Of a DNA stretch of 64,000 nt, positions 7,424 through 46,875 are shown one piece after another. This DNA comes from Marinobacter adhaerens HP15. Its GTDB lineage: Bacteria; Pseudomonadota; Gammaproteobacteria; Pseudomonadales; Oleiphilaceae. The translations under genes were made by a program, and so were the position numbers. The stretch covers positions 1,364,001 through 1,428,000 of the forward strand of contig NC_017506.1 in the NCBI RefSeq assembly GCF_000166295.1, given 5' to 3'. The notes below the pieces were generated by a model that saw only the letters and a list, made by a program, of their open reading frames with translations, made no database searches and was not told the DNA's origin. The first letter of the stretch is position 1, and every line of letters starts with the position of its first letter.

Positions 7424-7454
7424 CCAGCGGACCTTTGCGCGCGATCAGGCGCAT

Positions 7455-7488
7455 AAAAAATCCGGCCCTCAGAGGCCGGATTTTTTTT
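7455..7488. terminator. Bidirectional rho-independent terminator
   Basis: A-run, stem TCCGGCC (7461-7467) pairing with GGCCGGA (7474-7480), then a T-run. It serves the chemoreceptor gene and the converging adenosyltransferase gene. The last codons and stop of the latter are encoded inside it. Confidence 0.92.
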
Positions 7489-24553: not shown

Positions 24554-24584
24554 TTTGCTGGCCACTGCCAAGTGCAAGAAAACC

Positions 24585-24613
24585 AGGGGGGCGAGGTGAG
24601 CGTGCCCCTTTTT
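24585..24613 (+). terminator. Probable terminator after the beta-CASP gene
   Basis: A GGGG-rich strand pairs with GCCCC, followed by TTTTTG, between the stop codons of the nuclease and the converging chemoreceptor gene. The stem is short. Confidence 0.6.
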
Positions 24614-24625
24614 GTTATCAGGAAC

Positions 24626-26482: not shown

Positions 26483-27104
26483 GGTTGTCCTTACTTGCTT
26501 GAGGGCAGCATCAAAGCGTGGTTTTGCCTCATTTTTAGCACGAGGCAGCAAACGAAATTGATACACCGAGGAAATTTGGAATCTTTTATTTGCAACTATT
26601 AAGGCCGCTTTTATCAAAAGAATCCAGAGGCATACCGTAACAGATAGTTTCTGGACGAGTTTATTTGATACGGAAATGCAGTCATTCGCCGAAATAAAAA
26701 ATCATTAAGCAGTGAGCCTACAAGGACTCGAGGGTGAACACTGCCTGATTGGTATTGAGGTCTGCTCGACTTTGAGCGTGCGACAAAAAGTCACACCTAT
26801 CGATTTGGTGGCTAGACAGGGACGACTGGCTGCAACTGCGAGTGGTGTTATGGAGTTTTCTTTCACAGGTAATTGTCATGAGACTCCTGTTGGTGGGGGT
26901 CTCATGGCTGAGTATACGGCCGATCGCGATGTTGCACCTTTGCGCTTCTGGCAAAAGCATGAGAACTGTTCGTGCTAGATTGTTCTACTAGTTGTAACTA
27001 AAAAGCATTTGCTTATCAGTTTTTGTGCTTTACGATTGTGAATGAACGGTAATCTTGAACTGCTCTATGTTTTGGATTTTCTGAACTGCATTAGGGAAAG
27101 CATT
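26483..27104. other. 622-bp intergenic region with a strong hairpin
   Basis: The region is A/T-rich and divergent between the second chemoreceptor and the choice-of-anchor gene. Open frames of 80-88 codons on both strands lack family features and convincing ribosome-binding sites. The one clear structure is an inverted repeat, CATGAGACTCC (26877-26887) against GGGGTCTCATG (26896-26906), with one wobble pair and an 8-nt loop. No T-run follows. It may be an operator or leader RNA structure. No c-di-GMP (GEMM) riboswitch core is seen. Confidence 0.5.
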
Positions 27105-28823
27105 ATGACTACTACAAAAAATGATTTTGCGAGAAATCGACTTGCTAGCGCCGTGTTTTGTTCCATGATTGGCCTGCCGTGTGTGGCTGTTGCGGCAACG
27201 ATGGAGGGAGTGAACGAAGAAAACCTTGCGGTTCCACCGGTTGAAGGTAAAACCCTGGTGTATACCGATACAGAGGGAACTGCCAGCTTTGGGTGGCTCG
27301 ATCCGGTTAACGATTTTGGCAATGTAGGGTTGGGGATCAAGGTCTATAACGAGCCGTTCACCGCCCAGCAGACATACGATTTTGCCGGTTGCCTGATGGC
27401 CCAGCCCGATCGTGCCCCCGGCGACAACTGTACAGCCCCGCCTGATTCCGGAAAGCGTTTCAAGCTCAAAACAACCGAAACCAATGGTCCCATCGACATC
27501 GTTGTCGACGTGTCAGCCGATGATTCTGTAAGTCTCTACCGGGTGATTGGCAAGTTTTCCAATCTTACCGACGCCTCCAATTCGGTTGGCGGTGATTTGA
27601 ATGCGATCCGTTTCGAGCTCGGTTTTGGGGTTGGAAGCGAGTTTATGCGTTCATCTGTTGGTGATGGCCTCGGCTTTGGTTTCGCTGGTAATGACAAGCT
27701 TAGCATCGGGCCGGTTGGCAAATACCCCGGTGGTCTTTTTGGCGGAAGTAAAGTGGAAGGCCTTCCGTTCTTCAGTACCGAAGTTGCGCCTTTCACGGAA
27801 TCGGTAGGAACGGCTGCCGATGGAGATGTGCTTGAAACCAATGGCACCATTGCCACGCAGTACAGTTCTTTGTTTGGTGATTGGCGGACGCTGAGCGAAA
27901 CGCCCACGGGATGGTTTATTGATCACGACGGTAATCCGGCCAACGACTCGATCCTTCTGGCTTATAACGCCGGAACGGCTTCCGCGCCGGATTGGCAGAC
28001 TTATGAAAAAGTCTTTAGTACGACAGTTGAGGTAGATGCCGATGGCGACAATACGGTAGATACTCTCGCTGATCGATGGGATCCCAACAGCATTAACTTC
28101 GACCCGAGCGTAGCCGATGATGTAGGGCCAATTGTGGATACCTTGGGTGAGGGGGATGCCCAAGATACTGTACCTGATGCAATTTCATTGAATCAGTCTT
28201 CTGCTGCTGGCCTGTATGTTGCCGATTACAACAATACGGGCGAGGGTTTCAAAGTCCTGATCGATGGCGAGGCTGTAGCCATTGATGCCTTCGCCGAGTG
28301 GGCTAATCAACCTCCGAAAGTGCTCAATACTTCAGACGGCTCCCTCTACGCTACATGGAGGTCTGATGAGGGTGAGGATGGGTTGTATGAGTTGGCAGAC
28401 GGCTCGTTCGAAACTCTTGAGGCTGTAAACGCGACGATTCTGGCTGATGAAGCGGCATATGAACGCGTTGCCGGTTATGTTCAAGGCCCGATTGAAGATC
28501 TCGCCAACGTCAATATCAACCCCACAATTTCAGTGGGCGCGGCTGCCAATTGGCCAACCTGTACTGGTGATGGTGTGAGTACGACTTGTAGCTTCACGTT
28601 CAGGGTTACCGGTCTGAATGGTGCAGTTGATGATCCGATGATTCCAGATACTCCGGTTGAACCCGAGCCTGAAGAGCCCACTGCAGCGTCCAGTAGTGGC
28701 GGCGGTACCATCTTTGGTTGCACCGCAGGCAAACCAGGTGCTCCGTTCGATCCGGTTCTGCCGGGCCTGGTGCTGATGGCGATGGGCGGCTTGTGGGCGC
28801 GTAAGCGTCTACGCAATGCCTGA
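27105..28823 (+). CDS. Secreted choice-of-anchor-type protein with C-terminal sorting tail
   Basis: The 572-residue exported protein has an N-terminal signal peptide ending near VAVAA. ATG 27105 has GGGAAAG before it. The body is acidic, Gly/Asp/Asn-rich and beta-like, with few Lys, and includes FGWLDPVNDFGNVGLGIKVYN and VDADGDNTVDTLADRWDP, a dockerin-like calcium-loop pattern. The C-terminus has a Pro/Glu-rich linker, then GGGTIFGCTAGKPGAPFD, a hydrophobic helix and a final RKRLR. This Cys-helix-basic tail resembles short CTERM sorting signals (JDVT-CTERM-like) used with an intramembrane protease rather than LPXTG. The overall resemblance to 'choice-of-anchor F' proteins is from memory. The binding target is unknown. 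Confidence 0.65.
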   Translation: MTTTKNDFARNRLASAVFCSMIGLPCVAVAATMEGVNEENLAVPPVEGKTLVYTDTEGTASFGWLDPVNDFGNVGLGIKVYNEPFTAQQTYDFAGCLMAQPDRAPGDNCTAPPDSGKRFKLKTTETNGPIDIVVDVSADDSVSLYRVIGKFSNLTDASNSVGGDLNAIRFELGFGVGSEFMRSSVGDGLGFGFAGNDKLSIGPVGKYPGGLFGGSKVEGLPFFSTEVAPFTESVGTAADGDVLETNGTIATQYSSLFGDWRTLSETPTGWFIDHDGNPANDSILLAYNAGTASAPDWQTYEKVFSTTVEVDADGDNTVDTLADRWDPNSINFDPSVADDVGPIVDTLGEGDAQDTVPDAISLNQSSAAGLYVADYNNTGEGFKVLIDGEAVAIDAFAEWANQPPKVLNTSDGSLYATWRSDEGEDGLYELADGSFETLEAVNATILADEAAYERVAGYVQGPIEDLANVNINPTISVGAAANWPTCTGDGVSTTCSFTFRVTGLNGAVDDPMIPDTPVEPEPEEPTAASSSGGGTIFGCTAGKPGAPFDPVLPGLVLMAMGGLWARKRLRNA

Positions 28824-28850
28824 ATAATCTCGAGGTAAAAGGCGCAAATA

Positions 28851-28884
28851 AAAAGCGGGGCTGACAATCAGCCCCGCTTTTTTG
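28851..28884. terminator. Bidirectional rho-independent terminator
   Basis: AAAAGCGGGGCTGA (28851-28864) pairs with TCAGCCCCGCTTTT (28869-28882) around a 4-nt loop, with further T's. It lies between the converging choice-of-anchor and Gly/Gln-rich genes. Confidence 0.93.
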
Positions 28885-28907
28885 TGGCCCGGAACAGCAA
28901 TGTCCGA

Positions 28908-29324
28908 CTACTGGCTGTTTGATCCTTTCATCTTATACTGCTGATTCTTGCCGTTACCGCCACCCCCGGCGCCTTGCCCATTTTGCTGGCCCATACCCTG
29001 GCCCATGCCTTGCCCGTTCTTCTGGCCCATGCCCTGGCCTTTACCCATGCCTTGTCCGGAACCCTGTCCCATGCCGTTCCTGAGCTCAACGCCACGCTCT
29101 CTGGCTCGTTCCATCATCCGTTCATGGTGGAGCTGGCGGTACTTCGCACGCTCGGCGTCGGTGTTCAGGTTGCGCATGGTTTCCCGGTGCTGTTGCAGCT
29201 CTTGCTGGGTCATCAGTTCCCGTCCGAAAACCTGGTCGTCCGATTGGGCGGCAACCGGCATACTGGCCAAAGACGCCAGTAACGTGGCGCCAGCTATCAA
29301 GCTCAATGATTTTTTCACTCTCAT
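28908..29324 (-). CDS. Small secreted Gly/Gln/Met/Asn-rich repeat protein
   Basis: I do not recognise a family for this 138-residue exported protein. ATG 29324 is chosen because GGGGA precedes it; the frame is open further upstream. It starts MRVKKSLSLIAGATLLASLASMPVAAQ, so it has a signal peptide cut near VAAQ. A charged helical segment (about residues 30-75) contains VFGRELMTQQELQQHRET and many Arg. The last third repeats GMGQ/GQGMGQ/GQKNGQ units and ends in Gly/Asn/Lys. The sequence could be disordered or RNA-like-charged; no enzyme motif is visible. It is set off from neighbours by a terminator downstream and a repeat-bearing promoter region upstream. Confidence 0.7.
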   Translation of the reverse strand: MRVKKSLSLIAGATLLASLASMPVAAQSDDQVFGRELMTQQELQQHRETMRNLNTDAERAKYRQLHHERMMERARERGVELRNGMGQGSGQGMGKGQGMGQKNGQGMGQGMGQQNGQGAGGGGNGKNQQYKMKGSNSQ

Positions 29325-29391
29325 GGTTAATCCCCTTCGTTCTATGGATATAACTAAAGTATAGGCCAAGTCAGAAGTTTTGGGGTTATGA

Positions 29392-29427
29392 GTAGTACCT
29401 ATGTATTTCCCGGGTGCATGTAGTACC
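29392..29427 (-). promoter_or_regulatory. Direct repeats upstream of the secreted repeat protein
   Basis: GTAGTACC occurs at 29392-29399 and 29420-29427 on the plus strand (28-bp period), 68 bp and more before the minus-strand start codon. A -10-like TATACT lies between these repeats and the gene (near 29358). This layout fits activator sites, but the regulator is unknown. Confidence 0.4.
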
Positions 29428-29457
29428 AAAAGGGTGTATCTGCGGTTGAGTAGTGCG

Positions 29458-29994
29458 TTACCACATCAGATCATCAGGGATTTCGTAGCCTGCGTAAGGA
29501 TCATCCTCGCCTGCATCGTCCTGTTTGCGATCATGAAGTACCACCACGGCGCTCTCATCCCGCTCCATGATTTTTCGGGCAACACCTTCCGCCACAATCT
29601 CGTAGTTATCGTTCACGAAAACAATTGCCAGGCGGCCGCGGGATAGCTGATCGACCATAGTGTCGTCTACGAAGAGCTTCTTGATCTTTTTGTCATGAAC
29701 AAACTGATAGGAGGTTTCGCCGCGGCTTCGGTCCAGCCGGTTGGTTTCTACCAATTGCCGGATCTGGGCCTGGATGGCTTTCTTTTCGGCAGCGCGCTGG
29801 CGCTCCAGGTTGAGTTGGCGATCCCGCTCTGCTTTTTCCTCACGGGCCTGACGTGCACGGATCTCGGCCTCGTTAACTTCCACAGCCCCCTTGGGTTGCT
29901 GCTTTCTTTTCTTCCGTTTTTCGCTGCGAATGGCCTTGGCTTTTTTCTCGTCGGCAAGGCCGGCCTTCAGCAATTGATCCTGCAGGGATGCCAT
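29458..29994 (-). CDS. DUF2058 family protein (YaiL-like)
   Basis: This 178-residue cytosolic protein starts MASLQDQLLKAGLADEKKAK and continues in a strongly basic, coiled-coil-prone segment (many K, R, E, Q to about residue 85). A compact C-terminal domain has SYQFVHDKKIKKLFVDD and GRLAIVFVNDNYEIVAEGVARKI. These are the features of DUF2058 (YaiL) proteins, often described as nucleoprotein/polynucleotide-associated; the function is not established. It is divergent from dbpA with about 105 bp between start codons. Confidence 0.85.
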   Translation of the reverse strand: MASLQDQLLKAGLADEKKAKAIRSEKRKKRKQQPKGAVEVNEAEIRARQAREEKAERDRQLNLERQRAAEKKAIQAQIRQLVETNRLDRSRGETSYQFVHDKKIKKLFVDDTMVDQLSRGRLAIVFVNDNYEIVAEGVARKIMERDESAVVVLHDRKQDDAGEDDPYAGYEIPDDLMW

Positions 29995-30100
29995 CAGTAA
30001 CTCCGTTCTTTCGTTGCATATTCTGGTATCATTTCGGCCTAGTATACGCCCTCATTATTGCCTTCATAACCAGCTTCCGCTGAATCCGGGATTTTCTTCT

Positions 30101-31474
30101 ATGTCTTCTTTTAACGACTTTGGCCTGTCTACCGCCATGTGCTCGAACCTTAACCAGCTGGGGTTTGCCCAACCCACGGAGATTCAGGCGAAGGCCATTG
30201 CCCCGGGGCTGGCGGGAAAAGACATCATTGCCATGGCCAAAACCGGTAGCGGAAAAACGGCGGCGTTTGGCATCAGCCTGGTTGAGCGGCTCAATCCCCG
30301 TCTGTTCGCGGTTCAGGCGCTCGTGCTGTGCCCGACCCGTGAGCTGGCAGACCAGGTCGCCAAAGCTATCCGTGAGCTGGCGAGGGCCCGGGACAATATC
30401 AAGGTGCTGACTCTGTGTGGTGGTGTTGCCATCGGCCCCCAGATCGGGTCCCTGAGCCATGGCGCTCACATTGTTGTGGGTACCCCGGGCAGGATTCAGG
30501 ACCACCTGCGAAAGCAGACCCTCTCGCTGGTGCGGCTTAAAACCGTGGTGCTTGATGAGGCGGACCGAATGCTGGATATGGGGTTTCAGGAAGCGATGGA
30601 AGACATCCTGTCCCAGACTCCGCCATCACGCCAGACCATGATGTTTTCGGCGACCTGGCCGGCGCCCATCCGTGAATTGAGCAAGCAGTACCAGAAAAGC
30701 CCGGTAGACGTTCGGGCCGAGGACACCGGTGACAACCCGGACATTGAAGAGCTGTTCTACGAAGTGTCGCCACAGTCCAAATCGGATGCCATCGTAGCGC
30801 TGCTTTCCGAGCGTCAGCCCGAGTCCTGCATCGTTTTCTGCACCACCAAACAGCAGTGCGACGACATGGCGGCGGAACTCGGTGAGCGGGGTTTCTCTGC
30901 GCTGCCTTTGCATGGCGATCTGGAGCAACGGGATCGAGACAGCGTGCTCGTGCGCTTTGGCAATCAGAGCTGCTCCATCCTGGTTGCCACCGACGTGGCT
31001 GCCCGTGGCCTCGACATAAAGTCTCTGCCCCTGGTTATCAACGCCGAGCCCGCGCGGGATCCTGAAGTTCATACCCATCGGATCGGGCGCACCGGCCGGG
31101 CGGGGGAGCAGGGTCATGCCGTTACCTTCTGCACGCCGGCCCAGGGGCACAAGATTACCCGCATTGAGTCCGAAAGAGGCCGCAGCGTGACATGGGGAGA
31201 CACAGAGAAACTCCTGGCGACGCCGCTGAAATCTGTCGTGCCCGCCATGAAGACCCTGTGCATTGCCGGTGGTCGCAAAGACAAGGTCCGTCCTGGCGAT
31301 GTCCTGGGTGCCCTGACGGGCGAAGCAGGCCTGCCTGGCAAAGCTGTCGGCAAGATTGATCTGTTTGATCATCAGTGTTTTGTCGCGGTAGAGAAGTCGC
31401 TTGCAGCTAAGGCATTGGCCAGGCTCGAAAGTGGCAAGGTCAAGGGGCGGAAAATACGCGTTCGATATGCCTGA
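30101..31474 (+). CDS. dbpA: ATP-dependent RNA helicase DbpA
   Basis: DbpA is a DEAD-box helicase that acts on the peptidyl-transferase hairpin of 23S rRNA during 50S assembly. The 457-residue product (ATG 30101, MSSFNDFGLS) has the Q motif region, AKTGSGKTAAFG (Walker A), PTRELADQVA, VLDEADRMLDMG (DEAD), SAT, and HRIGRTGRAG. The C-terminal domain, TLCIAGGRKDKVRPGDVLGAL to the end, matches the DbpA RNA-binding module that gives rRNA specificity. An in-frame longer start upstream is not supported. Confidence 0.95.
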   Translation: MSSFNDFGLSTAMCSNLNQLGFAQPTEIQAKAIAPGLAGKDIIAMAKTGSGKTAAFGISLVERLNPRLFAVQALVLCPTRELADQVAKAIRELARARDNIKVLTLCGGVAIGPQIGSLSHGAHIVVGTPGRIQDHLRKQTLSLVRLKTVVLDEADRMLDMGFQEAMEDILSQTPPSRQTMMFSATWPAPIRELSKQYQKSPVDVRAEDTGDNPDIEELFYEVSPQSKSDAIVALLSERQPESCIVFCTTKQQCDDMAAELGERGFSALPLHGDLEQRDRDSVLVRFGNQSCSILVATDVAARGLDIKSLPLVINAEPARDPEVHTHRIGRTGRAGEQGHAVTFCTPAQGHKITRIESERGRSVTWGDTEKLLATPLKSVVPAMKTLCIAGGRKDKVRPGDVLGALTGEAGLPGKAVGKIDLFDHQCFVAVEKSLAAKALARLESGKVKGRKIRVRYA

Positions 31475-31622
31475 ATGAGAATTGCTTCGTCTGTATAAAT
31501 GCGTGTCTTTTCGGGCCGCGACGCTCGGAAACCCCGTATAGATTTTTGCATTCAGGTTGCCCGGGCACCCTGAAAACGGTAAATTACGCAGGATTTTGCC
31601 CCCCGAATTGTCGCGGAAGCGT

Positions 31623-31640
31623 GTTAGACCTTAGTCTAAC
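31623..31640. promoter_or_regulatory. Perfect inverted repeat upstream of oadGAB
   Basis: GTTAGAC-CTTA-GTCTAAC lies 58 bp before the oadG start codon. It is a good operator candidate for the oxaloacetate decarboxylase operon; no T-run, so not a terminator. The protein that binds it is unknown. Confidence 0.45.
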
Positions 31641-31697
31641 TGGTCAGTCCGGGCACAGATCGGGAGAAATATAAATCAATACAGGTAGCTGTTCGAT

Positions 31698-31949
31698 ATG
31701 AATGACCTGATGTCACAAGCCGTCGATCTGATGATTGCCGGAATGGGGTTTGTATTCGTGTTCCTCATTATTCTGGTGTTCGCGACACTCCTCATGTCCA
31801 AGCTCATAGGACGGTTTGCGCCGCCAGAGCCGGCAACCCCGGCCAAAACGCCACGTGCCAAGCCGAAGGCGCCCGCGTCGGTTGACCCTGACACCGCCGA
31901 GGCCATCAAGAAGGCGATTGCACAATTCCGGTCCCGCCACAAGAAGTGA
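31698..31949 (+). CDS. oadG: Oxaloacetate decarboxylase gamma subunit
   Basis: This small inner-membrane subunit of the Na+-pumping oxaloacetate decarboxylase helps assemble the alpha and beta subunits. The 83-residue protein has one N-terminal membrane helix (LMIAGMGFVFVFLIILVFATLLM), a Pro/Ala/Lys linker and a charged C-terminal helix. Its place directly before oadA, 41 bp upstream, secures the call, since the sequence itself is short. Confidence 0.92.
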   Translation: MNDLMSQAVDLMIAGMGFVFVFLIILVFATLLMSKLIGRFAPPEPATPAKTPRAKPKAPASVDPDTAEAIKKAIAQFRSRHKK

Positions 31950-31990
31950 ACCGGTAAAAGACTAGAACCTTTAAACAGAAGGCTGACACG

Positions 31991-33778
31991 ATGACTGACA
32001 CAAAGAAACCGCTGGGGATTACGGACGTTATCCTGCGTGACGCCCACCAGTCCCTGCTTGCCACCCGTATGCGGCTGGATGACATGCTGCCAATTGCCGA
32101 GAAACTCGACAAGGTAGGTTTCTGGTCCCTGGAATCCTGGGGTGGCGCTACCTTTGATTCCTGCATTCGCTACCTGGGCGAAGATCCCTGGGAGCGCATC
32201 CGCGAGCTGAAAAAAGCCATGCCCAACACCCAGCAGCAGATGCTGCTGCGCGGTCAGAACCTGCTGGGCTATCGTCATTATGCGGATGATGTGGTGGACC
32301 GTTTCTGTGAGCGTGCCGCTGAAAATGGCGTTGACGTATTCCGTATTTTCGATGCGATGAACGATCCCCGTAACCTGGATCGTGCCATTAAGGCCGTACG
32401 CAAGACCGGCAAGCATGCCCAGGGCACCATTGCCTACACCACCAGCCCGGTGCACACCATCGAGATGTGGGTAGAGCTGGCGAAAGAAGTTGCCGACATG
32501 GGTGCGGACTCCATTGCGATCAAGGACATGGCCGGTATCCTCAAGCCGTACGTGGCCTATGATCTGGTCAGCCGTCTGAAGAAAGAGCTGGACATTCCGA
32601 TTCACATGCAGTGCCACGCCACTACCGGCATGTCGACTGCCACCGCCATCAAGGCGGCGGAAGCCGGTATCGATAACGTGGATACCGCGATTTCCTCAAT
32701 GAGTATGACCTACGGCCATTCGCCCACTGAAGCCGTGGTTGCGATTCTTGAGGGTACAGACCGTGATACGGGCCTGGATCTGAACCTGCTGGAAGAAATT
32801 GCCGCTTACTTCCGCCAGGTGCGTAAGAAGTACGCGAAATTCGAAGGCAGCCTGCGTGGCACCGATTCCCGCATCCTGATTGCCCAGGTACCGGGTGGCA
32901 TGCTCACCAACATGGAAAACCAGCTGCGTGAGCAGAACGCCAGCGACAAGTTCGATCAGGTTCTGGACGAGATTCCCAAGGTTCGAGAAGACCTGGGCTT
33001 CATCCCGCTGGTAACCCCGACTTCCCAGATCGTCGGTACCCAGGCGGTACTGAACGTTCTGACCGGCGAGCGCTACAAGTCCATCTCCAAAGAAACTTCT
33101 GCGATCCTGAAAGGCGAGTACGGTGCTGCACCGGCGCCGATGAACAAGGAACTGCAGGAGCGTGTTCTGGATGGCAAAGAGCCTGTGACCTGTCGTCCGG
33201 CGGATCTGCTTGAGCCGGAAATGGACAAGCTGACTGACGAGCTCAAGAAGCTGGCCGACGAGAAGGGCATCAAGCTGTCTGACAACGTTGAAGACGACGT
33301 TCTCACCTACGCGCTGTTCCCGCAGATCGGCCTGAAGTTCCTGGAAAACCGTGACAACCCGGATGCGTTCGAGCCGGTTCCGACCGCTGAAAGCGCTGCT
33401 CCGGCCGCGAAGTCTGAAGGCCCTGAGACCTACACCGTTGAAGTGAATGGCAAGAAGTTTGTGGTTGCCGTTTCCGAAGGTGGAGAGATCAGCCAGATTC
33501 AGGGCGAGGGCGGTGCCGCTTCCGCTCCGGCTGCTTCCTCAGCTCCGGCACCCGCAGCGGGTGAAGGCGAGCCTGTGGTTGCACCGCTGGGCGGCAACAT
33601 CTTCAAGGTTCTGGTTTCTCCGGGTGAAACCGTGGAAGAGGGCGATGTAATGATTATCCTCGAGGCCATGAAAATGGAAACCGAGGTTCGCGCGCCGAAA
33701 GCCGGCACAATCGGCGAAGTCTTCATCAAGGTCGGTGATGCCGTCTCTCCTGATGATGAAATGCTGACAATCGCATAA
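31991..33778 (+). CDS. oadA: Oxaloacetate decarboxylase alpha subunit (biotin enzyme)
   Basis: The alpha subunit transfers the carboxyl group from oxaloacetate to biotin, releasing pyruvate. The 595-residue product begins with the carboxyltransferase motif [19 protein letters not shown] and includes [16 protein letters not shown] and HCHATTG-type [10 protein letters not shown] conserved C-terminal carboxylase domain follows, then an Ala/Pro-rich linker (about residues 510-525) and a biotinyl domain with EAMKMET (Lys near 561). It is gene 2 of oadGAB. Some relatives serve as pyruvate carboxylase subunit B, but oadG and oadB favour the sodium-pump form. Confidence 0.96.
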
Positions 33779-33791
33779 GGGCCAGCATTCC

Positions 33792-35126
33792 ATGGATAAA
33801 TTAATGACGCTCTGGACAGGCAGTGGCCTGTTCAACATCGAGATCGGCCAGGTGATCATGATCGCCATCGGTCTTCTTCTTCTTTTCCTTGCCATTCGCA
33901 AGGGGTTTGAGCCATTGCTTCTGGTACCCATCGGGTTCGGCGGCATCCTGGCGAATATTCCGGAGGCAGGCCTTGCCCTGACTGCGGCGGAAAATGCTAT
34001 CCACTTTGCCCTGAAGAATGAGGCAGGCCAGATTCTGGCCGCCCTGGCCGCTCCTCTGGATGTTGCCTATCAGGCCGGGCAGGCAGTAACGCCCGAGCTG
34101 AAAGAAGCCTTCAAGGTGGCCGTAAAAGAGGCCAGCTACTCCGAAATGGCGATGGCCAACTCCCTGGCCCAGGATTTCGGTTACGGCAATGGCATGCTGT
34201 ATAACTTCTACTCCGTGGTTATCGGCAGTACCGTTGGCCCGCTGTTGATCTTCATGGGCGTGGGCGCCATGACCGATTTCGGTCCGCTGCTGGCTAACCC
34301 CAAGACGATGCTTTTGGGCGCTGCTGCCCAGTTCGGCATCTTTGGTACCGTAATCGGTGCTGCCCTGCTGGACTGGACCGGTGTTCTGGATTTCAACATT
34401 CTGGAAGCGGCTGCCATTGGCATCATCGGTGGTGCTGACGGCCCAACCTCCATCTATGTTGCCAGCGTTCTGGCGCCGCACCTGCTGGGTGCGATTGCGG
34501 TCTCTGCCTATGCCTATATGGCCATGGTGCCGATGATCCAGCCGCCGATCATGAAGGCGCTGACCTCTCCTGAAGAGCGCAAGATCAAGATGACGCAGCT
34601 GCGTCCGGTCAGCAAGAAAGAGAAGATCGTCTTCCCGCTGGTGGTTCTGATTGCGGTCGTTCTGTTCCTGCCGGATGCGGCACCGCTGCTCGGTATGTTC
34701 TGCTTCGGTAACCTCATGCGTGAGTGTGGCGTGGTCGAGCGTTTGAGCGACACGGCCCAGAATGCTCTGATCAACATCGTGACCATTTTCCTTGGCCTGT
34801 CCGTTGGTTCCAAGCTGATGGCAGACAAGTTCCTGGACGCCCAGACCCTGGGTATCCTGGGCTTGGGTATCGTGGCCTTCGGTGTGGGTACTGCCTCGGG
34901 TGTTCTGATGGCGAAGCTGATGAACAAGCTGAGCAAAGAGCAGATCAACCCGCTGATCGGTTCTGCCGGTGTATCTGCGGTGCCGATGGCAGCGCGGGTC
35001 TCCAACAAGGTGGGCCTGGAAGCCAACCCGCAGAACTTCCTGCTGATGCACGCAATGGGCCCGAACGTGGCCGGCGTTATTGGCTCTGCGGTTGCTGCTG
35101 GTGTGATGATAAAGCTTTTGAGCTGA
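33792..35126 (+). CDS. oadB: Oxaloacetate decarboxylase beta subunit, sodium pump
   Basis: The beta subunit is an integral membrane protein that decarboxylates carboxybiotin and uses the energy to export Na+. The 444-residue product has many membrane helices, [18 protein letters not shown] near the start, [25 protein letters not shown] (the conserved Asp-containing ion-path region), and [18 protein letters not shown] near the C-terminus. It completes oadGAB, 13 bp after oadA, and is followed by a terminator. Confidence 0.96.
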
Positions 35127-40447: not shown

Positions 40448-40540
40448 TATTCGGAAAGCGGCCGGATTTCAAGAGAAGGGTTGATAAAGCGAAGGGCACG
40501 ACCCACGCTTGTAATACAGCCATCAACCATGGAGGTTGAA

Positions 40541-40888
40541 ATGAGTGACCTGAAAGCACACAGCTGTGAAGCCTGCAGCCCGAACGCAAGCAAGGCGACC
40601 GAGGAAGAAAAGCAGCAGCTGCATAAAGAGGTTCCAGACTGGGAAATTCTGGAAATTGACGGGGAAGAACAGCTTCATAAGGTCTACAAACTTAAAAACT
40701 TTGTGAAGGCCCTGGAACTCACCAACAAAATTGGCGAACTTGCCGAAGAAGAAGACCATCACCCCGTGGTTGTTCTGGAGTACGGCAAAGTTGCAGTGAG
40801 CTGGTGGAGCCACGAAATCGGCGGTCTGCACAAGAACGACTTTATCCTGGCAGCGAGAACCGACGCTGCTTTCAACGACATGCAATAA
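40541..40888 (+). CDS. Pterin-4a-carbinolamine dehydratase family protein
   Basis: This small cytosolic enzyme dehydrates 4a-hydroxytetrahydrobiopterin during aromatic amino-acid hydroxylation; homologues can be a transcription coactivator. The 115-residue protein starts at ATG 40541, with GGAGG just before it. The active-site motif is EEEDHHPVVVLEYGKVAVSWWSH, with the family's two adjacent His and the downstream His and Asp (LHKND). It is divergent from imuA with the LexA box between them. The gene symbol phhB is common for such proteins; no phenylalanine hydroxylase gene is in this window. Confidence 0.88.
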   Translation: MSDLKAHSCEACSPNASKATEEEKQQLHKEVPDWEILEIDGEEQLHKVYKLKNFVKALELTNKIGELAEEEDHHPVVVLEYGKVAVSWWSHEIGGLHKNDFILAARTDAAFNDMQ

Positions 40889-40950
40889 TCCCAATCGCGG
40901 CGGAACCCGGCTTCCGCCGCGCTCCTTCCGGACCGGAGACCACCAGACGA

Positions 40951-41226
40951 ATGGTTGAAAACCGCACCGATAACCCCCTGACCCTGAAGCTCGGCAGGGA
41001 AGAGCTCATCATCCGGCGCCGCTACGAAGTGGTCAGCATCATCAACGACTTTTTCATCGCCATCTGGTTTCTGGTGGGGAGCATCCTGTTCCTCTTCCCG
41101 GAATACGAGAAAGCGGCCATCTGGCTGTTTATCATTGGCAGCTTCCAGTTCCTGATCCGCCCCACCATCCGGCTTATCAGCCACATTCACGTTAAGCGAA
41201 TTCCAGCCAGTAACTGGGAGAGTTAG
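40951..41226 (+). CDS. YrhK family membrane protein
   Basis: This is a 91-residue inner-membrane protein with a YrhK-like domain. ATG 40951 is chosen because GGAG precedes it and because the frame before it is not hydrophobic. After REELIIRRRYEVVSIINDFF come two membrane helices (IAIWFLVGSILFLF and AAIWLFIIGSFQFLIRPTI) and a short basic tail (LISHIHVKR). The function is not established. It is followed by the integron-like region. Confidence 0.85.
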   Translation: MVENRTDNPLTLKLGREELIIRRRYEVVSIINDFFIAIWFLVGSILFLFPEYEKAAIWLFIIGSFQFLIRPTIRLISHIHVKRIPASNWES

Positions 41227-41557
41227 AAGCCTTCGTCAACCGGGCTGCGCACCCCAAAAACAGTTCAGGAGTTTGACGACGAATTTGTCGCTGCCGCACA
41301 ACTCCAACAATCACATGAGAAATGACGGTAACTATCTGATAGGTTTGAGAAGTTAGAAAAGGAAAGGCGGAGTTATACGGCTATGGCGGGAGCCGGAGTG
41401 ACTCAGGGGAGGGCGTATAACTCCGACGGTAACCGTGGTAAATGATGCTCAAGAAATTGTTTTTAATAGAGAAGTTTGTTTTTCTTGAGCGCGTTTGAAT
41501 GGAGTTTTACGAACGCGTTCGTATAATTAGCTGTTAAGTGTTTTCAGGGAGGAAACT
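41227..41557. other. 331-bp gene-free region with several palindromes
   Basis: This gap before the DUF3291 gene holds a 12-bp perfect inverted repeat (41368-41379 / 41414-41425), a second 10-bp perfect one (41447-41456 / 41481-41490) and the palindrome ACGAACGCGTTCGT (41509-41522). A -10-like TATAAT at 41522-41527 is the best candidate promoter for the first cassette gene. No protein-coding gene is supported. Confidence 0.55.
41372..41539. other. Possible gene-free integron cassette / attC-like site
   Basis: GTTATAC at 41372-41378 could be a cassette start, and GTATAAC at 41415-41421 is its exact reverse complement, as R'' should be. The element would close at GTTAAGT (41533-41539), with an inner stem GCTCAAGAAA/TTTCTTGAGC. 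A gene-free cassette of this size is unusual, so this is a tentative reading; a simple operator palindrome is the alternative. Confidence 0.3.
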
Positions 41558-42055
41558 GTGAGTAAGTATCAGATTGCCCAGCTCAACATTGCCACACTAA
41601 TGGCTCCAATCGATTCGCCTCAGCTTTCAGATTTCGTCGCGAATTTGGACAGGATCAACGCGTTGGCTGAGGACTCCCCTGGTTTCGTCTGGCGCTTGCA
41701 AACAGACGAAGGTGATGCCACCGGCATTGATTATTTCGGCTCCGATAAGATCGTAAATCTTTCTCTCTGGGACTCAGTTGAGGCTTTGCATAATTACGTG
41801 TATCGGTCTGCCCACGTCGAGATCATGCGACGCAAGAAAGAGTGGTTCCTCAAAATGGGAGAGGCATACATGGTTCTTTGGTGGGTGCCTGCCGGTCACA
41901 TTCCCTCAGTCGACGAAGCGGCGCAAAAGCTGAACATCTTGCGAGAGCACGGACCAACCGCCGAGGCTTTCACGTTCAAAAAAGCGTTCCCGGCTCCCAG
42001 TGAATTGGCCAGTGTGCCGACCGATACTTTGGATGGTGAATGTCCAGCCACTTAA
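41558..42055 (+). CDS. DUF3291 domain-containing protein (cassette gene)
   Basis: This 165-residue soluble protein starts at GTG 41558 with GGGAGGAAACT before it. It has IAQLNIATLMAPIDSPQLSDFVANLDRIN, GFVWRLQTDEGDATG, NLSLWDSVEALHNYVYRSAHVEIMRRKKEWF and YMVLWWVPAGHIPSVDEAAQKL, which fits the DUF3291 family (a ferredoxin-like fold in the monooxygenase-like dimeric alpha/beta-barrel group). No cofactor or catalytic residue is evident. The stop codon lies in the R'' box ACTTAAC, so it is the first gene of the cassette array. Confidence 0.75.
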   Translation: MSKYQIAQLNIATLMAPIDSPQLSDFVANLDRINALAEDSPGFVWRLQTDEGDATGIDYFGSDKIVNLSLWDSVEALHNYVYRSAHVEIMRRKKEWFLKMGEAYMVLWWVPAGHIPSVDEAAQKLNILREHGPTAEAFTFKKAFPAPSELASVPTDTLDGECPAT

Positions 42056-42134
42056 CAAATCAATTAAGTTTGTTGCGGCCTACGGCCTCCACCGGACGGC
42101 CCTGTCGGGCCGCCGCTTTTTTTCGGCGTTATGT
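42050..42134 (+). other. attC-like recombination site 1
   Basis: R'' ACTTAAC (42050-42056), a GC-rich folded middle with GCGGCC and GGCCGC arms, and R' GTTATGT (42128-42134). Cassette 1 begins with GTTAAGT, the exact complement of its R''. Confidence 0.7.
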
Positions 42135-42143
42135 GGCTACTGA

Positions 42144-42471
42144 ATGAGCATTGAGATCGTTCTTGCAATATCAGCCTCCCTCTTGATCCTTCCGGTTTTG
42201 ATCACCCGCTGGCTATGGTTTTGGGTTTTCTCGTTGGTATTGGGGCTCCCGATGATTGGAGTTTGGGCGGTGTATTTTTACCAAACATCGCAGCCTGAAT
42301 ACTCTGGTTCTCCACAGGAGTTTTTTCGGCATTCTCATAATGGTGCTGATCTCAGGATCCTTAGCATTGGGAATGTTCCTGCGGTACATTCGGTGGGTAA
42401 TTGGAATTAAAGTACACGAAATTAAGACCGCAAAGGCGTTGGACTCCGGCGGCTCAGGGAGCAACACATAA
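42144..42471 (+). pseudogene. Small membrane protein cassette gene, frame broken near 42321
   Basis: ATG 42144 starts 16 bp after the cassette core. The first frame encodes two membrane helices (VLAISASLLILPVLITRW and FWVFSLVLGLPMIGVWAVYF) and a Ser/Gly/Pro segment ending EFF. After TTTTTTCGG (about 42322-42330) the plausible continuation is in another frame and gives a third helix (GILIMVLISGSLALGMF), then a basic tail and stop codon inside R'' ACATAAC. With one T fewer in the run, one continuous protein of about 108 residues results. No family is recognised. It may be a true pseudogene or a sequencing error. Confidence 0.6.
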
Positions 42472-42552
42472 CCAACTGTTGTAGTTCGTTCCCGGCCTGG
42501 CGGGCGTCTACCGGGCGCCCTAGTCGGGTGCCGTTTAATATTGGCATTAACT
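42466..42552 (+). other. attC-like recombination site 2
   Basis: R'' ACATAAC (42466-42472) is the exact complement of the GTTATGT that begins cassette 2. A GC-rich hairpin-forming middle (GGGCG/CGCCC) follows, and the core ATTAACT is at 42546-42552. Confidence 0.65.
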
Positions 42553-42572
42553 GTCACTGAAAAGGAGTTCAC

Positions 42573-42938
42573 ATGGGCTATCAGGCGATTAATTTTAAAA
42601 ACAAGCTCGGCCTCTTCGATGAGCAATGGTCACCGAAGGTCATCGCTGAGATGAATGACTATCAGTTTAAAGTCGTTAAAATCCAGGGCGAGTTTGTGTG
42701 GCACGATCACAAAGACACAGACGAGACTTTTATAGTCCTTGAGGGCAGCCTCAGAATCAATTTCAGAGACGGGCATGTGGACCTATCTGAAGGCGAAATG
42801 TACGTGGTCCAGAAGGGCGTTGAACACAAGCCTTTTGCGGAACATGAGGCAAAGGTTCTACTTATCGAGCCACGTGGAGTCGTGAACACTGGCGACGAAA
42901 CTGGTACCCAGACGGCAGAGAATGACGTTTGGATCTAA
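42573..42938 (+). CDS. Cupin domain-containing protein (cassette gene)
   Basis: This 121-residue soluble protein has AAGGAG and 6 bases before ATG 42573. Its single cupin barrel carries [16 protein letters not shown] (metal-binding His pair and Glu) and a second motif near [21 protein letters not shown], with a further His. Such proteins are often small isomerases, sugar-binding or unknown; no substrate can be named. It lies inside the cassette array with a 27-bp leader after its core and a stop 3 bp before the R'' of site 3. Confidence 0.8.
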
Positions 42939-42941
42939 ATT

Positions 42942-43052
42942 GGTAAACACAAAGTCATCAAGTTCGTTCCTGGCCGAAGGCCCTTCAACGGACGTGCATT
43001 ACATTGCGACTTCGGCTCCATTACATGGGCGCGCATTCTGCAAGCGTTAGTT
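42942..43052 (+). other. attC-like recombination site 3
   Basis: GGTAAAC (42942-42948) opposite GTTAGTT (43046-43052), preceded by CAAGC, the usual end of an R' box (AAGCGTTAG). The middle has GGCCGAAGGCC and other short arms. R'' matches its cassette start at only 5 of 7 positions, so it is degenerate. Confidence 0.55.
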
Positions 43053-43075
43053 ACCAAAGGAAATCGAGCATTGTG

Positions 43076-43141
43076 ATGTCGAAACTTATCCTCTTTGCCA
43101 TAAGTGTAGAATCGAGAAAATCTGCTAAAAATTGGCTTTAA
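43076..43141 (+). CDS. Possible 21-codon micro-ORF in a very short cassette
   Basis: ATG 43076 to TAA 43141 would encode 21 residues (starts MSKLILFAISVE). AAAGGA lies about 14 bases upstream. It fills the roughly 148-bp cassette between cores at 43046 and 43194 and, like the other array genes, ends at the attC. Coding potential cannot be judged from so short a frame; it may be a decayed cassette remnant. Confidence 0.25.
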   Translation: MSKLILFAISVESRKSAKNWL

Positions 43142-43200
43142 TGCGACCGATTTTCGGCCCCTTCGCGGCGCCAAATCGGAGTTTGAGCCAGGCATTAGCT
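43136..43200 (+). other. attC-like recombination site 4
   Basis: TTTAATGC (43138-43145) can pair with GCATTAGC (43192-43199), with an inner stem CCGATTT/AAATCGG. The core ATTAGCT lies at 43194-43200. It is a short, degenerate site. Confidence 0.5.
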
Positions 43201-43228
43201 GCAACTAGAAGGGAATCAGAGAAGAATA

Positions 43229-43609
43229 ATGGGAACAGAGTTTTATATAACCCTCTTGGCTGTCGGGTTGGGGATTATCGCTCTACTATGGTTGCCGGTC
43301 TTATGGGCCTACATTTATGCGCGATGGCAAGGCATTTCTGAACCGGTACGATTTGCGTTTTATAGTGGTTGTGTCACGTATGGCATTCCGATGCTCGTTG
43401 GAGCAATAACTGTGATACCTCTGCTGCTGGTGCTGGCCAAGGTTGCACCTCAGCAATGTTTTGATGCTCCGGGCAGTTGGGTTTGTGCAACCTATGATTC
43501 TATCGACGATTGGTTGGAGACAATTGCAACGTTGATGACCATTGTGATTGCCATCTTTTGCCCGGCTTATTTTAACCGGCATGTTTGGTCAAGGAGTGAA
43601 GGTAGTTAA
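43229..43609 (+). CDS. Small inner-membrane protein of unknown function (cassette gene)
   Basis: This 126-residue protein starts at ATG 43229, 35 bp after its cassette core. Four membrane helices are visible: FYITLLAVGLGIIALLWLPV, GCVTYGIPMLVGAITVIPLL, a segment near LLVLAKVA, and IATLMTIVIAIFCPAYF. Cys residues lie at CVTY, CFDAPGSWVC and CPAYF. I do not recognise a family. The stop codon is inside the R'' box of site 5, as in cassettes 1 and 2. Confidence 0.65.
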   Translation: MGTEFYITLLAVGLGIIALLWLPVLWAYIYARWQGISEPVRFAFYSGCVTYGIPMLVGAITVIPLLLVLAKVAPQQCFDAPGSWVCATYDSIDDWLETIATLMTIVIAIFCPAYFNRHVWSRSEGS

Positions 43610-43693
43610 ACAGTCGATCAACCGGACACGAAAAGCATACCGCTTGTGCTTCCCTCCGCTGGTGTTCCGGTAGCGGTTACCTTGGCATTATCT
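43605..43693 (+). other. attC-like recombination site 5
   Basis: GTTAAAC (43605-43611), an inner stem CCGGACAC/GTGTTCCGG, and the core ATTATCT (43687-43693). The fit to its cassette start is imperfect. Confidence 0.55.
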
Positions 43694-43739
43694 GTAAATA
43701 CGAGCTGTTCTTAGTCGGTCTCCATAGGATTCCCAAGCC

Positions 43740-44276
43740 ATGAAATTCTCGAAGTATAGCCAGTCTGATCGTCAGGAAATCGAGGCCCTGTTTACCCGGA
43801 CATTCTCTGATTCAGAAGGTGAGTCCGAGGGAAAGCTGATTGGGCATCTGGTGCATGAGTTGATGAATGGGGCCGAAACCGATGACATTTTCGGGTTCAT
43901 CGCTACCGAGCAAGGGCAGATAGTCGGCTGTACCTTTTTCACGAGATTGTCGTTCGGCTCCCGCGTAAACGCTTTCATGTTGTCACCGGTAGCCGTTGAT
44001 ATAGACCATCAGGGGAAAGGCGTTGGTCAAAAACTGATTAACTTTGGCATTGACCACTTGCGTGAACGGGGTGTCGAACTCATTTTTACCTACGGTGATC
44101 CGAACTACTATTCAAAAGTGGGTTTCGAGCACGTACCTCAAGAGGTTGCGGAAGCGCCATTTAAATTAACCCATCCAGAGGGGTGGCTGGGGCAGTCGTT
44201 GGATGGCGGCAGTATTAAGCTCCCACTGGGGCAGGCGTGTTGCGTTGAGGCATTCAACGATCCTCAATATTGGTAG
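43740..44276 (+). CDS. GNAT family N-acetyltransferase (last cassette gene)
   Basis: This 178-residue cytosolic acetyl-CoA-dependent transferase resembles the YhbS type. MKFSKYSQSDRQEIEALFTRTF starts the fold. The acetyl-CoA loop is DHQGKGVGQKLINFGIDHL (Q/RxxGxG/A), followed by GDPNYYSKVGFEHV. The substrate is unknown. ATG 43740 is 53 bp after the last core. The gene overlaps the converging aspartoacylase-like gene by 13 bp and is not followed by an attC, so the array may be cut off here. Confidence 0.85.
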   Translation: MKFSKYSQSDRQEIEALFTRTFSDSEGESEGKLIGHLVHELMNGAETDDIFGFIATEQGQIVGCTFFTRLSFGSRVNAFMLSPVAVDIDHQGKGVGQKLINFGIDHLRERGVELIFTYGDPNYYSKVGFEHVPQEVAEAPFKLTHPEGWLGQSLDGGSIKLPLGQACCVEAFNDPQYW

Positions 44277-45409
44277 ATCCATCGACCGCACCGAGAATCA
44301 CATATCAATTCGCGTAAGACGGAAGTCCGTGACGAGCCGCCGCTTCGCTTGGCGTCAAAAAATGGCTCCCCCGTTGCCTTGACCGCATAAAACAGGCAGT
44401 CACTCTTCGCAATAACCGGGTTGGTGGTAATCATAAAGGTCCTGAGGGCCTGGGCGGGGTAGATCTTCCCATCCCTGACCTGAAGTACCTGTGTCATGTT
44501 CTCTTTTCGGTTGTGGCCGATCGCGGTGAGTATGCCGAGGCCTTTTTTGCCAACCCACCCCAGGGGCTCATCCGGAGACACGATTCCGAAATTACGATGT
44601 TCAATGTCGGGGGGGAAGGTCAGGTCGGCGTGGCCGGTGGGCTCGAGGCGGTATTCTATGGTTGCTTCAGGCGCCAGTTCCACCCGGATCGGATTGCGCA
44701 GTACGGTGACGTCCCAGTCCGCTTTTTCCAGTGACAACACATCTGGCCTTGAGCAATACCGGACGAGTCCCTCATAGGCCAGTTCATGTGCCTGTTCGTC
44801 CTGGGAACCACCACACTCGATGGTTACTGTGGGCACCTCCTGCTCGGAATATTCCATCAGCGCCCCCAGGCGTAGATCCGTTATGATCAGGCGGTCGGTA
44901 AAGAGCGATGTCAGTGCCTGATGCGCCGCGTCATTGGTGATGGACACGGCGAACGCAGGGCCTGAACCTGAGGTGTTGTGAACATCCAGCAGGCATTCGG
45001 GCTTCGCGTTATGGAGCTCTACCAGCATGGCCCTGGCAATCGCCCCTTCTTCTCCCTCGAACGGTTCCTTGAAACATCGGTTGAGGTCACGTCCGTCAGG
45101 AAGCTGTCGCCATGAGAGTGTGGGAGGAATCTTCGCAGGGTAGATACCGCCCAGAAGAAACAGCATGTTAACTGCCGGGGTGTGCTGTTCGAGCAGCCAT
45201 CGATGAAGCGCAAGCAGGCCAGAAGGCTCATTGCCGTGAAGCAGCGTTGCCATGGCTCGGGTCCGGGAGCGATCACGACCAGCAACACGAATAATCGTGG
45301 GCTTTTGTAGCTGGTCCAACCACTCAAGGGCGGAGCGGCCCAGGGTCCGGGGGGAGGGATCATTCAAATAATCGAGGACGTTCGAGTTACTCACGGCGAC
45401 AATGTCCAT
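44264..45409 (-). CDS. Succinylglutamate desuccinylase/aspartoacylase family protein
   Basis: This 381-residue zinc amidase is of the M14-like AstE/AspA group. Zinc-site motifs are LLHGNEPSG (about residues 56-64) and DVHNTSGSG (about 142-150), with GGIYPAKIP and YSEQEVPTVTIECGG (catalytic Glu region). It overlaps the GCS2-like ligase by 19 bp and reads after it, so the two are translationally coupled. The last codons (RWIYQY) lie on the antisense side of the GNAT gene; the true C-terminus may have been replaced when the cassettes arrived. The substrate is unknown. Confidence 0.82.
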   Translation of the reverse strand: MDIVAVSNSNVLDYLNDPSPRTLGRSALEWLDQLQKPTIIRVAGRDRSRTRAMATLLHGNEPSGLLALHRWLLEQHTPAVNMLFLLGGIYPAKIPPTLSWRQLPDGRDLNRCFKEPFEGEEGAIARAMLVELHNAKPECLLDVHNTSGSGPAFAVSITNDAAHQALTSLFTDRLIITDLRLGALMEYSEQEVPTVTIECGGSQDEQAHELAYEGLVRYCSRPDVLSLEKADWDVTVLRNPIRVELAPEATIEYRLEPTGHADLTFPPDIEHRNFGIVSPDEPLGWVGKKGLGILTAIGHNRKENMTQVLQVRDGKIYPAQALRTFMITTNPVIAKSDCLFYAVKATGEPFFDAKRSGGSSRTSVLRELICDSRCGRWIYQY

Positions 45410-46875
45410 TCATGGAGCGGCGTATTTGTCTTCTGGTTGGCTATGTACAGGGAGAGCATGGTCTGGAAGGCCTCATCGGGGCTCAGGGATTTGAACAGGG
45501 ATTCGGTGATTTGGCGTTGCCACCGGGCGCCCGACATGGCGGTTTCAATGCGGCCTTCGATAATTCCCAGCAAGCGGTGAATTTCTGACTCGTCCACGGC
45601 TGTTTGTGCCAGTGCGTCCCGGGCGCGGGGTAGCAGATCCCGGGCCACGGTTAACAGGGGCGTATCCTGCAACTGAACCTGATTCTTGTGTGGCCATATG
45701 ATTTCTGCGCCAACGCCATATTTCGCGGCGCGGTAGAAGTTGTGCTCCGTGTAATGGAAGGGAAGTATCGACGTCAGATGATGAATATCATCAAGGACTG
45801 CCAGCGCAGCGCCAATTATGAACAGCCCGTTCGCACACATATCAGCAGCCGTAGGGCCTGCGGGCATTGAGCGAATCTCGATGCGCAGGTGGCCGCCTTC
45901 GGTATGGTCGTAGATGGCACGGTTCCAGGGCCAGGTGGTTCCCTGGTGCAGTCGCAGTTCAGCCAGTTTCGGCACATCACCGCGATCAATCACCGCCATC
46001 GGGTCTTCCTCCGACATCAGTGGAATGATGGGCGGATAGAGCGATGCCGAGGCGGCAAAGAGTTCCCAGGCGCTGCGTGTCCAGCCATTGCCGTAGTATA
46101 CCCGTGGCGGATGGCGCCAGGTTTTATGGTTGGGCGATCGGCTGTCGATGGATTGCTTGAACAGGGCAATGCGGGTTTCGTCCCACAGGTGGTGGCCAAA
46201 CAGGCTGGGTGAGTTGCTGGCCAGAGCGAGGACAACCGGCGTGACCAGTTGGACCGCATTGAAGTAATCGGCAAAACGGTGTGCGGGCACCCGCCAGTGA
46301 AGCTGGAAGGAGGTGTTTGCTCCTTCCATGTAGACGTCGTCAGCTTCCAGATTGATAACGTCGTTGCCACCAATATGGATGCTGAATGGCTCTCCCCGTT
46401 GCTGGATCAGCGCTTTGGATAACGCATGATAGCGGGGCTCGTCTGTCATTGCCTTCGCACCCATATCAGACTGGCGAAGCGTGGGCAGAATGCCGATCGG
46501 CACCAGTTCTCCATCCAGTGATGCGGCGTGCTGGTTGATCCGTTGGATCGCAGAGAGCAACTCCTGCTCTGTTCTGGCGAAGGGAGAGCCCTTGAAAGCC
46601 TGGGGGCTGAGATTGTATTCGAGATTGAAGCGGTTAAGCTCAACCGTCAGTTGAGGGTCCTGAACGCGGGCGGCGATTTCCGTGTTGATGGGTTGAACGC
46701 GCAGGTCCGGGTTTACGATGTAGAACTCTACCTCCGCTCCGATAGAGCTTGCGCCTTCGCCAAAGCCGGGCCGGTTCAGAAGACGAGTAAGTGCTTTAAG
46801 ATCCGTCCTGACCTTGGCGGCAAAACGTTCAAACTCTTCCGGCGCAAACTCTGTTGTCTTGATCGACAGTCCCAC
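45391..46875 (-). CDS. Glutamate-cysteine ligase family protein (GCS2-like)
   Basis: The 494-residue protein belongs to the carboxylate-amine/GCS2 ligase family. It has GAEVEFYIVNPDLRV near the N-terminus (Glu residues for Mg-ATP), RFNLEYNLSPQAF, EGANTSFQLHWRVP, LASNSPSLFGHHLWDETRIALF and HLRIEIRSMPAGPTAADMCAN. Family members join amino acids through gamma-glutamyl bonds, but true glutathione synthesis cannot be claimed. The overlap with an aspartoacylase-like amidase suggests a make-and-trim pair acting on a small amide. Confidence 0.8.
   Translation of the reverse strand: MGLSIKTTEFAPEEFERFAAKVRTDLKALTRLLNRPGFGEGASSIGAEVEFYIVNPDLRVQPINTEIAARVQDPQLTVELNRFNLEYNLSPQAFKGSPFARTEQELLSAIQRINQHAASLDGELVPIGILPTLRQSDMGAKAMTDEPRYHALSKALIQQRGEPFSIHIGGNDVINLEADDVYMEGANTSFQLHWRVPAHRFADYFNAVQLVTPVVLALASNSPSLFGHHLWDETRIALFKQSIDSRSPNHKTWRHPPRVYYGNGWTRSAWELFAASASLYPPIIPLMSEEDPMAVIDRGDVPKLAELRLHQGTTWPWNRAIYDHTEGGHLRIEIRSMPAGPTAADMCANGLFIIGAALAVLDDIHHLTSILPFHYTEHNFYRAAKYGVGAEIIWPHKNQVQLQDTPLLTVARDLLPRARDALAQTAVDESEIHRLLGIIEGRIETAMSGARWQRQITESLFKSLSPDEAFQTMLSLYIANQKTNTPLHEWTLSP

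Follow-up and report, generated by a model that had tools for sequence, protein, structure and literature searches.

Examining a 64-kb stretch of the Marinobacter adhaerens HP15 genome (NC_017506.1, positions 1,364,001-1,428,000; hereafter the window, whose own numbering is used for all coordinates below), we found a row of short gene cassettes that, with a probability of about 93%, represents the imuA-linked sedentary chromosomal integron of Marinobacter after loss of its integrase gene, intI, through a deletion of roughly 1 kb. A first-pass annotation made from the sequence alone had described this array as a cluster of attC sites lacking an integron integrase (CALIN). That call is borne out by four matches to an attC covariance model and by the lack of any intI above cut-off in the genome, and it can be refined—beyond an attC cluster, the locus would be a chromosomal integron tied to imuA, with intI deleted, attI kept and the distal attC sites decayed. 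Checks along the lines proposed at that stage agree with it: our own covariance model (R1) matched attC1, attC2, attC3 and a terminal site; the search of the whole genome returned no intI above cut-off; and, in related genomes, the cassettes proved to be scattered and full integrons occupied the same site in G107, G079 and G034 (G codes denote the 124 genomes of the genus, G000 being that of the window, and L codes individual loci).

The features that frame the array, from left to right, are the following:

40541-40888, + strand: phhB-type pterin-4a-carbinolamine dehydratase gene of the left flank, beside imuA (PF01329, 1.1e-28; NF002016 above cut-off), with the same flank in relatives
40951-41226, + strand: YrhK-like gene, the last of the left flank (PF14145, 3.2e-26), its stop codon overlapping that of intI
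41223-41258, - strand: intI remnant, the last 11 codons plus stop, in the exact position and frame
41260-41294, no strand: deletion junction, with about 1 kb absent (intI codons 1-319, the intI start and a presumed LexA-like box)
41295-41537, + strand: leader and attI region, core AATTAGCTG^TTA, crossover between 41533 and 41534
44264-45409, - strand: aspartoacylase-like (aspA-like) gene of the right flank, 381 aa

The integrase gene was sought with the profile TIGR02249 (curated cut-off 265) over the three contigs of the window genome, which is 99.99% complete; the best score was 82.8 bits, below the cut-off, so that, together with the attC matches, the array fits the CALIN definition. The same profile exceeds its cut-off in 84 of the 124 genus genomes. 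What remains of intI is a short tail, identical (tblastn, 100%) to residues 320-330 of the G107 integrase and lying within a 98% DNA match to that genome (41141-41259). Homology to G107 ends at 41,259 and restarts at 41,295, about 1.0 kb further along the G107 sequence; in the blastn alignment to L071rc, the match ends at 5739 and restarts at 6783. The motif CTGTN8ACAG, which we take to be a LexA-like box, lies near the intI start in five of six relatives scanned (not G108) and is absent from the window. On the far side of the junction, the sequence from the leader to the attI core matches the corresponding intI-attI region in G107 at 86.9% DNA identity, with parts at 80-82% in G108 and G079, and the attI core is present in five of the six relatives scanned (not G035).

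The same junction recurs in G018 (Marinobacter flavimaris), where a second deletion follows in the direction of attI. That the missing intI is an artefact of assembly or sequencing could be argued from the end of the aspA-like gene and from cassette 2, both of which appear altered by indels in homopolymer runs, but a junction that carries its own substitutions in a second genome, and an assembly as compact and complete as this one, make such an error hardly credible.

The flanks point to the same origin. Gene order in G107, G079 and G034 is imuB, imuA, phhB, yrhK, intI, attI, cassettes, aspA-like and glutamate-cysteine ligase-like, with intI divergent from the cassettes, and a complete integron thus stands between the very flanks of the window. 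The names aspA-like and glutamate-cysteine ligase-like are in part our presumption, Pfam giving a sub-threshold AstE_AspA match. The yrhK gene adjoins intI in G107, G034, G116 and G035, and it is shortened in G107 and G079. On the right, homology with six relatives resumes at 44,339-44,359, beside the terminal attC, and the aspA-like gene has 381 aa in the window versus 351 aa in the six nearest relatives listed; its extra 30 aa are an antisense reading across the terminal attC and the end of cassette 6. Across the genus, 119 genomes have imuA; in 32 of these, a full intI stands on the same strand no more than 5 kb away, and a further 9 have partial matches within 6 kb, at least one of which lies at the end of a contig. 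Of the hallmarks of a sedentary chromosomal integron, the locus accordingly displays an attI beside the first cassette and a site that recurs in the genus, and it lacks a functional intI. A different route to a CALIN would be the insertion of cassettes off-site, or the relocation of a cassette block, at a place never linked to intI; four other attC clusters of this genome, beside which queries with integrases of two lineages found no intI trace, indicate that clusters of this kind exist, although they may either have lost a linked intI recently or have arrived as blocks. With both the intI tail and the attI region in place here, between flanks that match those of intact integrons, we regard that origin as improbable for the window.

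A separate side observation concerns the ligase-like flank gene (45391-46875), which is 99.4% identical to its G018 counterpart, the neighbouring aspA-like gene reaching only 88.6%—a step in identity that points to recombination or rearrangement at this place.

To recognise attC sites, a strict pattern (RYYYAAC...GTTRRRY) was tried first; the window yielded no candidate and real arrays yielded few. Because many sites deviate base by base, it was abandoned in favour of repeats and a covariance model. Self-comparison of the G107, G034 and G079 arrays gave 40 repeats, mostly of 50-130 bases, of which 36 carried a TAAC as well as a GTTA box (9 from G107, 1 from G034 and 26 from G079); these were trimmed and aligned to build R1, so that the training set held relatives' sites only and circularity was avoided. 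The consensus stem of these sites has one unpaired A and shows compensatory change in six of eight pairs, the R boxes lying outside the predicted stem. Applied to the whole window at E up to 10, R1 returned only four matches—all within the array, on the + strand and in order, each with E <= 0.0014 and together within 2.3 kb. With two degenerate sites, the series reads:

42050-42134, + strand: attC1 (R1 77.6 bits, E 4.2e-17), R'' and R' boxes intact
42466-42552, + strand: attC2 (46.5 bits, E 2e-9), R' reading ATTA, not GTTA
42944-43052, + strand: attC3 (33.2 bits, E 3.9e-6), R'' damaged
43123-43200, + strand: attC4, degenerate (11.3 bits, E 0.083, filters off on 40500-45500)
43606-43693, + strand: attC5, degenerate, without an R1 match, recognised by identity to model-positive sites elsewhere
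44300-44360, + strand: terminal attC at the right edge (23.0 bits, E 0.0014 over the 64 kb), sharing bases with the end of the aspA-like gene

The two degenerate sites were placed by comparison with other arrays. For attC4, parts of the arrays in G034 and G079 have 79-80% identity. For attC5, 77-80% identity was found to two G016 sites scoring about 29 bits with R1, to a G034 site (31.4 bits) and to a site on a Providencia plasmid (29.2 bits). At attC3, homology of cassette 3 stops inside the site (42994-42995) in L131, L133 and L135, and the right part matches a different attC type in L071 and L076, so that the site may be read as resembling a hybrid of two attC types. Only attC1 has intact box letters; the six window sites retain TAAC in R'' in two cases and GTTA in R' in two, against 50/50 and 48/50 for the G107, G079 and G034 sites, a contrast biased by the fact that 35 of those 50 sites trained R1 and were selected for the boxes that it favours. 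Five sites were also folded singly with DNA parameters, the bottom strand being slightly lower in energy in 5/5 by 0.1-2.5 kcal/mol, a difference for which no significance test was made and on which we do not build. Rfam at gathering scores gave no match in the array, its matches in the window being three tRNA genes and a weak RtT.

The attC sites delimit six cassettes:

41534-42128, + strand: cassette 1, DUF3291 gene 41558-42055 (PF11695, 7.3e-62) plus attC1
42129-42546, + strand: cassette 2, small gene, apparently frameshifted (frames 42144-42410 and 42256-42471)
42547-43046, + strand: cassette 3, cupin_2 gene 42573-42938 (PF07883, 2e-11)
43047-43194, + strand: cassette 4, roughly 150 bases long and without a frame above 22 codons
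43195-43687, + strand: cassette 5, 126-aa gene 43229-43609, no Pfam match
43688-44354, + strand: cassette 6, GNAT acetyltransferase gene 43740-44276 (PF13527, 3.8e-12)

Much of what the first-pass annotation had read from the letters is present here, namely short genes on one strand, with leaders that follow (G/A)TT cores and with spacers that resemble attC. Its limits (41533-44276) were somewhat narrow, as the array continues to about 44,354 with the terminal attC that had been missed and, on its attI side, starts to the left of 41,533. It had placed stop codons inside the R'' box of cassettes 1, 2 and 5; this stands for cassette 1, applies in cassette 2 only to a downstream 71-aa frame (TTG start), since the gene looks frameshifted, and meets in cassette 5 an R'' that is off consensus. 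Nor are all cassette genes unknown, as had been supposed—three of the five clear ones fall into named families (DUF3291, cupin and GNAT). The products of cassettes 2 and 5 look like small membrane proteins.

Cassette 1 recurs over its whole length, at 89-94% DNA identity, in four other species (G024, G061, G006 and G112). With a query extending past the cassette, homology runs from 41,533 to 42,131-42,137, that is, from the attI core to the attC1 core; in a fifth locus (G029), it runs from 41,535 to 42,059. Borders were compared in these five loci, the gene being present in 21 genomes besides that of the window. Homology from crossover to crossover was thus found for cassette 1 in four of five loci, and for cassette 6 at its left border in G018, where homology begins exactly at 43,688 (94.6% DNA). 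In five loci with relatives of cassette 3, homology starts at 42,541-42,569 four times and at 42,483 once, and cassette 2 recurs from 42,125-42,126 in G058 (95% DNA identity) and G084 (86%). A model-positive attC stands directly 3' of the gene in 4/5 cassette-1 loci and 3/5 cassette-3 loci. The crossover-to-crossover recurrence of cassette 1 is the mark of a cassette array, not of an operon.

The genes themselves are patchily distributed: with the window genome counted, those of cassettes 1, 2, 3 and 5 occur in 22, 3, 10 and 5 of the 124 genomes, respectively, the cupin thus having homologues in 9 other genomes and the cassette-5 protein in 4 (34-52% identity). A conserved operon, which the earlier annotation had named, along with a lack of attC matches, as what would overturn it, was therefore not seen in the genus for these four genes. 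Same-strand genes, short spacers and GC-rich hairpins could also describe an ordinary operon or gene island whose terminator-like hairpins resemble attC fortuitously. Terminator-like sites are no commoner in the region than in shuffled sequence (3 versus 4.1 expected), though, and the independently trained model matches with E down to 4e-17, the genes are not kept together, homology borders coincide with crossover points and relatives hold full integrons at this very site, all of which leaves that explanation with next to no likelihood.

Further comparisons of the cassettes add detail. The frameshift in cassette 2 lies at a T run near 42320 (42310-42330), with longer open frames in G058 and G084; the first frame matches those genomes up to residue 61, inside their longer frame. 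Searching 20 loci of relatives with the five cassette proteins gave a sole match, a 33% GNAT in G069; the 95% GNAT match in G018 lies on a further stretch beyond those 20 loci, and the dN/dS of 0.36 for cassette 6 against G018 comes from 16 differences, too few for a claim of selection. Beyond the genus, where plasmid and phage records were searched, no record held most of the region; phage records gave no match at all, and plasmid matches were single pieces (the cupin gene at 66-70% and attC-like stretches). PADLOC gave no match to the cassette proteins of the window. No sigma-70-type site was found near attI, and the region as a whole has 2 such sites versus 3.0 expected; the cassette genes are presumably expressed.

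Integron cassettes are captured by integrase (IntI)-catalysed recombination between attI and attC. On this basis, the cassettes would have been acquired successively at attI through attI x attC recombination, with newer insertions displacing older ones rightward. The intI gene would then have been lost by deletion, most simply in an ancestor common with M. flavimaris, after which the array would have become static, attI and attC1 staying intact while distal attC sites decayed. Other relatives have different lesions at this site. G108 retains another intI remnant, an N-terminal piece, and G069 has no match to intI or attI at the imuA-linked site; as these differ from the G018 junction, three losses of intI are likely at this site among near species.

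Several points weigh against this reading. The 33-base intI remnant, taken alone, is not significant as a protein match (E 0.26; 0.086). Over 24000-34000 of the window, G018 is the nearest of nine relatives (96% over 9.4 kb), but G107, whose intI is intact, is nearly as close over part of that stretch (95% over 5.8 kb, 83% over 3.4 kb), so that the junction may have been gained by homologous recombination, not by descent. R1 barely reaches attC4 and fails at attC5, even with filters off on 40500-45500, where an extra, chance-like match of 4.7 bits falls outside the array; the model was used without a shuffled control, and one match (L114:15971-16054, 27.0 bits) lies about 7 kb off its cluster. 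The other attC arrays of the same genome have nearly intact boxes (TAAC in R'' in 25/27 sites, GTTA in R' in 24/27); as they lie in a genome that likewise has no intI to serve them, loss of the integrase alone does not explain the decay seen here. Finally, in integrons, the R'' box that closes a cassette is complementary to that cassette's own first bases, a relation that the first-pass annotation had pointed out for two cassettes. It is exact in cassette 1 (GTTAAGT/ACTTAAC) and cassette 2 (GTTATGT/ACATAAC) and fails in cassettes 3-6, where the best 7-mers, sought up to 12 bases from the expected place, agree in 4, 4, 5 and 5 of 7 bases. In four reference arrays (G107, G079 and two others of the window genome), it is exact in 56/67 adjacent site pairs and in 56/1388 non-adjacent ones; against this background of 4%, the two exact matches are well above chance.

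A distinct question is whether the array is dead. The imuA site is not the sole intI site of the genus, since 50 genomes have a full intI unlinked to imuA (not within 10 kb on the same contig; e.g., L116-L119), and the four compared have 43-50% identity to the imuA-linked type, implying a second IntI lineage. Such an integrase, coming and going, might recombine the array in trans—a possibility to which these genes, the intact attI and attC1 and the 89-94% identity of cassette 1 to copies in other species all lend something. The window genome has no such gene above cut-off, however, the distal attC sites are decayed and the deletion is common to M. flavimaris, so that the state without intI is not momentary; we consider continued recombination in trans unlikely. 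The broader proposal that the integrase is repeatedly lost at the site tied to the mutagenesis genes imuA and imuB, with attI and the arrays persisting and staying usable through the second lineage, is similarly doubtful; if trans action were real, integrase loss would be a reversible switch, not decay.

The degraded integron described here is not the only attC-bearing locus in HP15. A genome-wide R1 scan, in which 150 of 2471 first-look candidates were scored, gave 31 matches in five clusters, none isolated. Besides the window array, these are G000:C1:976459-985889 (L112), 3833-3840 kb (L113), 4389946-4392999 (L114) and 1518153-1519099 (L115); scanning over longer local stretches brought in more sites, and the largest of these four has 17 R1 matches. 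L113 contains an MNT/HEPN-like nucleotidyltransferase pair and an Mrr-like protein, and L112 a Barstar-like gene. In L115, a two-gene cyclic-oligonucleotide-based antiphage signalling system (CBASS; CD-NTase and Cap15-type receptor, 6129-7684, - strand) lies directly before an attC site; sites were found at 6026-6100 and 5154-5224 and none on the other side of the CBASS, which is arranged as though the entire defence operon were one cassette. Outside all five clusters, an open 105-aa frame at C1:3666135-3666452 (L017:1459-1776) has the N-terminal SAM-like domain known from integrases but no catalytic part, and about 30% identity to IntI N-termini; the idea that it is left over from the lost intI was weighed and dismissed. 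On the IncC plasmid pCHS4.1-1 of Providencia rettgeri (L145, 191241-196885), a cassette-like gene row beside traN has 6 R1 matches, two of its sites being 80-83% identical to attC5 and attC1 of the window.

Our search of the literature on Marinobacter integrons, which left most subscription journals outside its reach, returned no title on chromosomal integrons of the genus. Comparison was made with systems from other bacteria and with the relatives themselves. In the IntegronFinder 2.0 article (PMC9024848), a CALIN is an attC cluster lacking an integron integrase, with at least two close attC sites and no intI. In contrast to the typical case, the window array keeps attI and a piece of intI, and its ancestral state is visible in relatives. 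The origins of CALINs have so far mostly been inferred; the locus joins a known kind of element, the degraded sedentary chromosomal integron, and supplies direct evidence of origin. Because one syntenic site offers intact integrons, a shared deletion and two other losses, it would allow measurement of how fast integrases are lost, arrays freeze and attC sites decay.

The CALIN of Halorhodospira halochloris, a halophilic gammaproteobacterium, is, as far as the available parts of its description go (PMC7923331), likewise an attC array in a genome with no intI, but it comes with group II introns, which an Rfam scan did not find in the window; the attI and intI remnant of the window have no counterpart mentioned in those parts. 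Another parallel is offered by the ilvD-linked integrons of Xanthomonas, which are reported (PMC12444791) to occupy a fixed chromosomal site; in many strains, frameshifts, stops or large deletions have inactivated their intI, and the array content of such strains is fixed. The Marinobacter locus resembles them in its fixed site and inactivated intI, and it differs in genus, in its imuA/phhB/yrhK site and in having one junction common to two species, with other losses separate. Within the genus, the counterparts are the complete integrons of G107, G079 and G034, which share the site, the flanks and the attI and attC families of the window array and differ from it in their full intI, their other cassettes and their 15, 30 and 6 attC matches, respectively, in the stretches searched.

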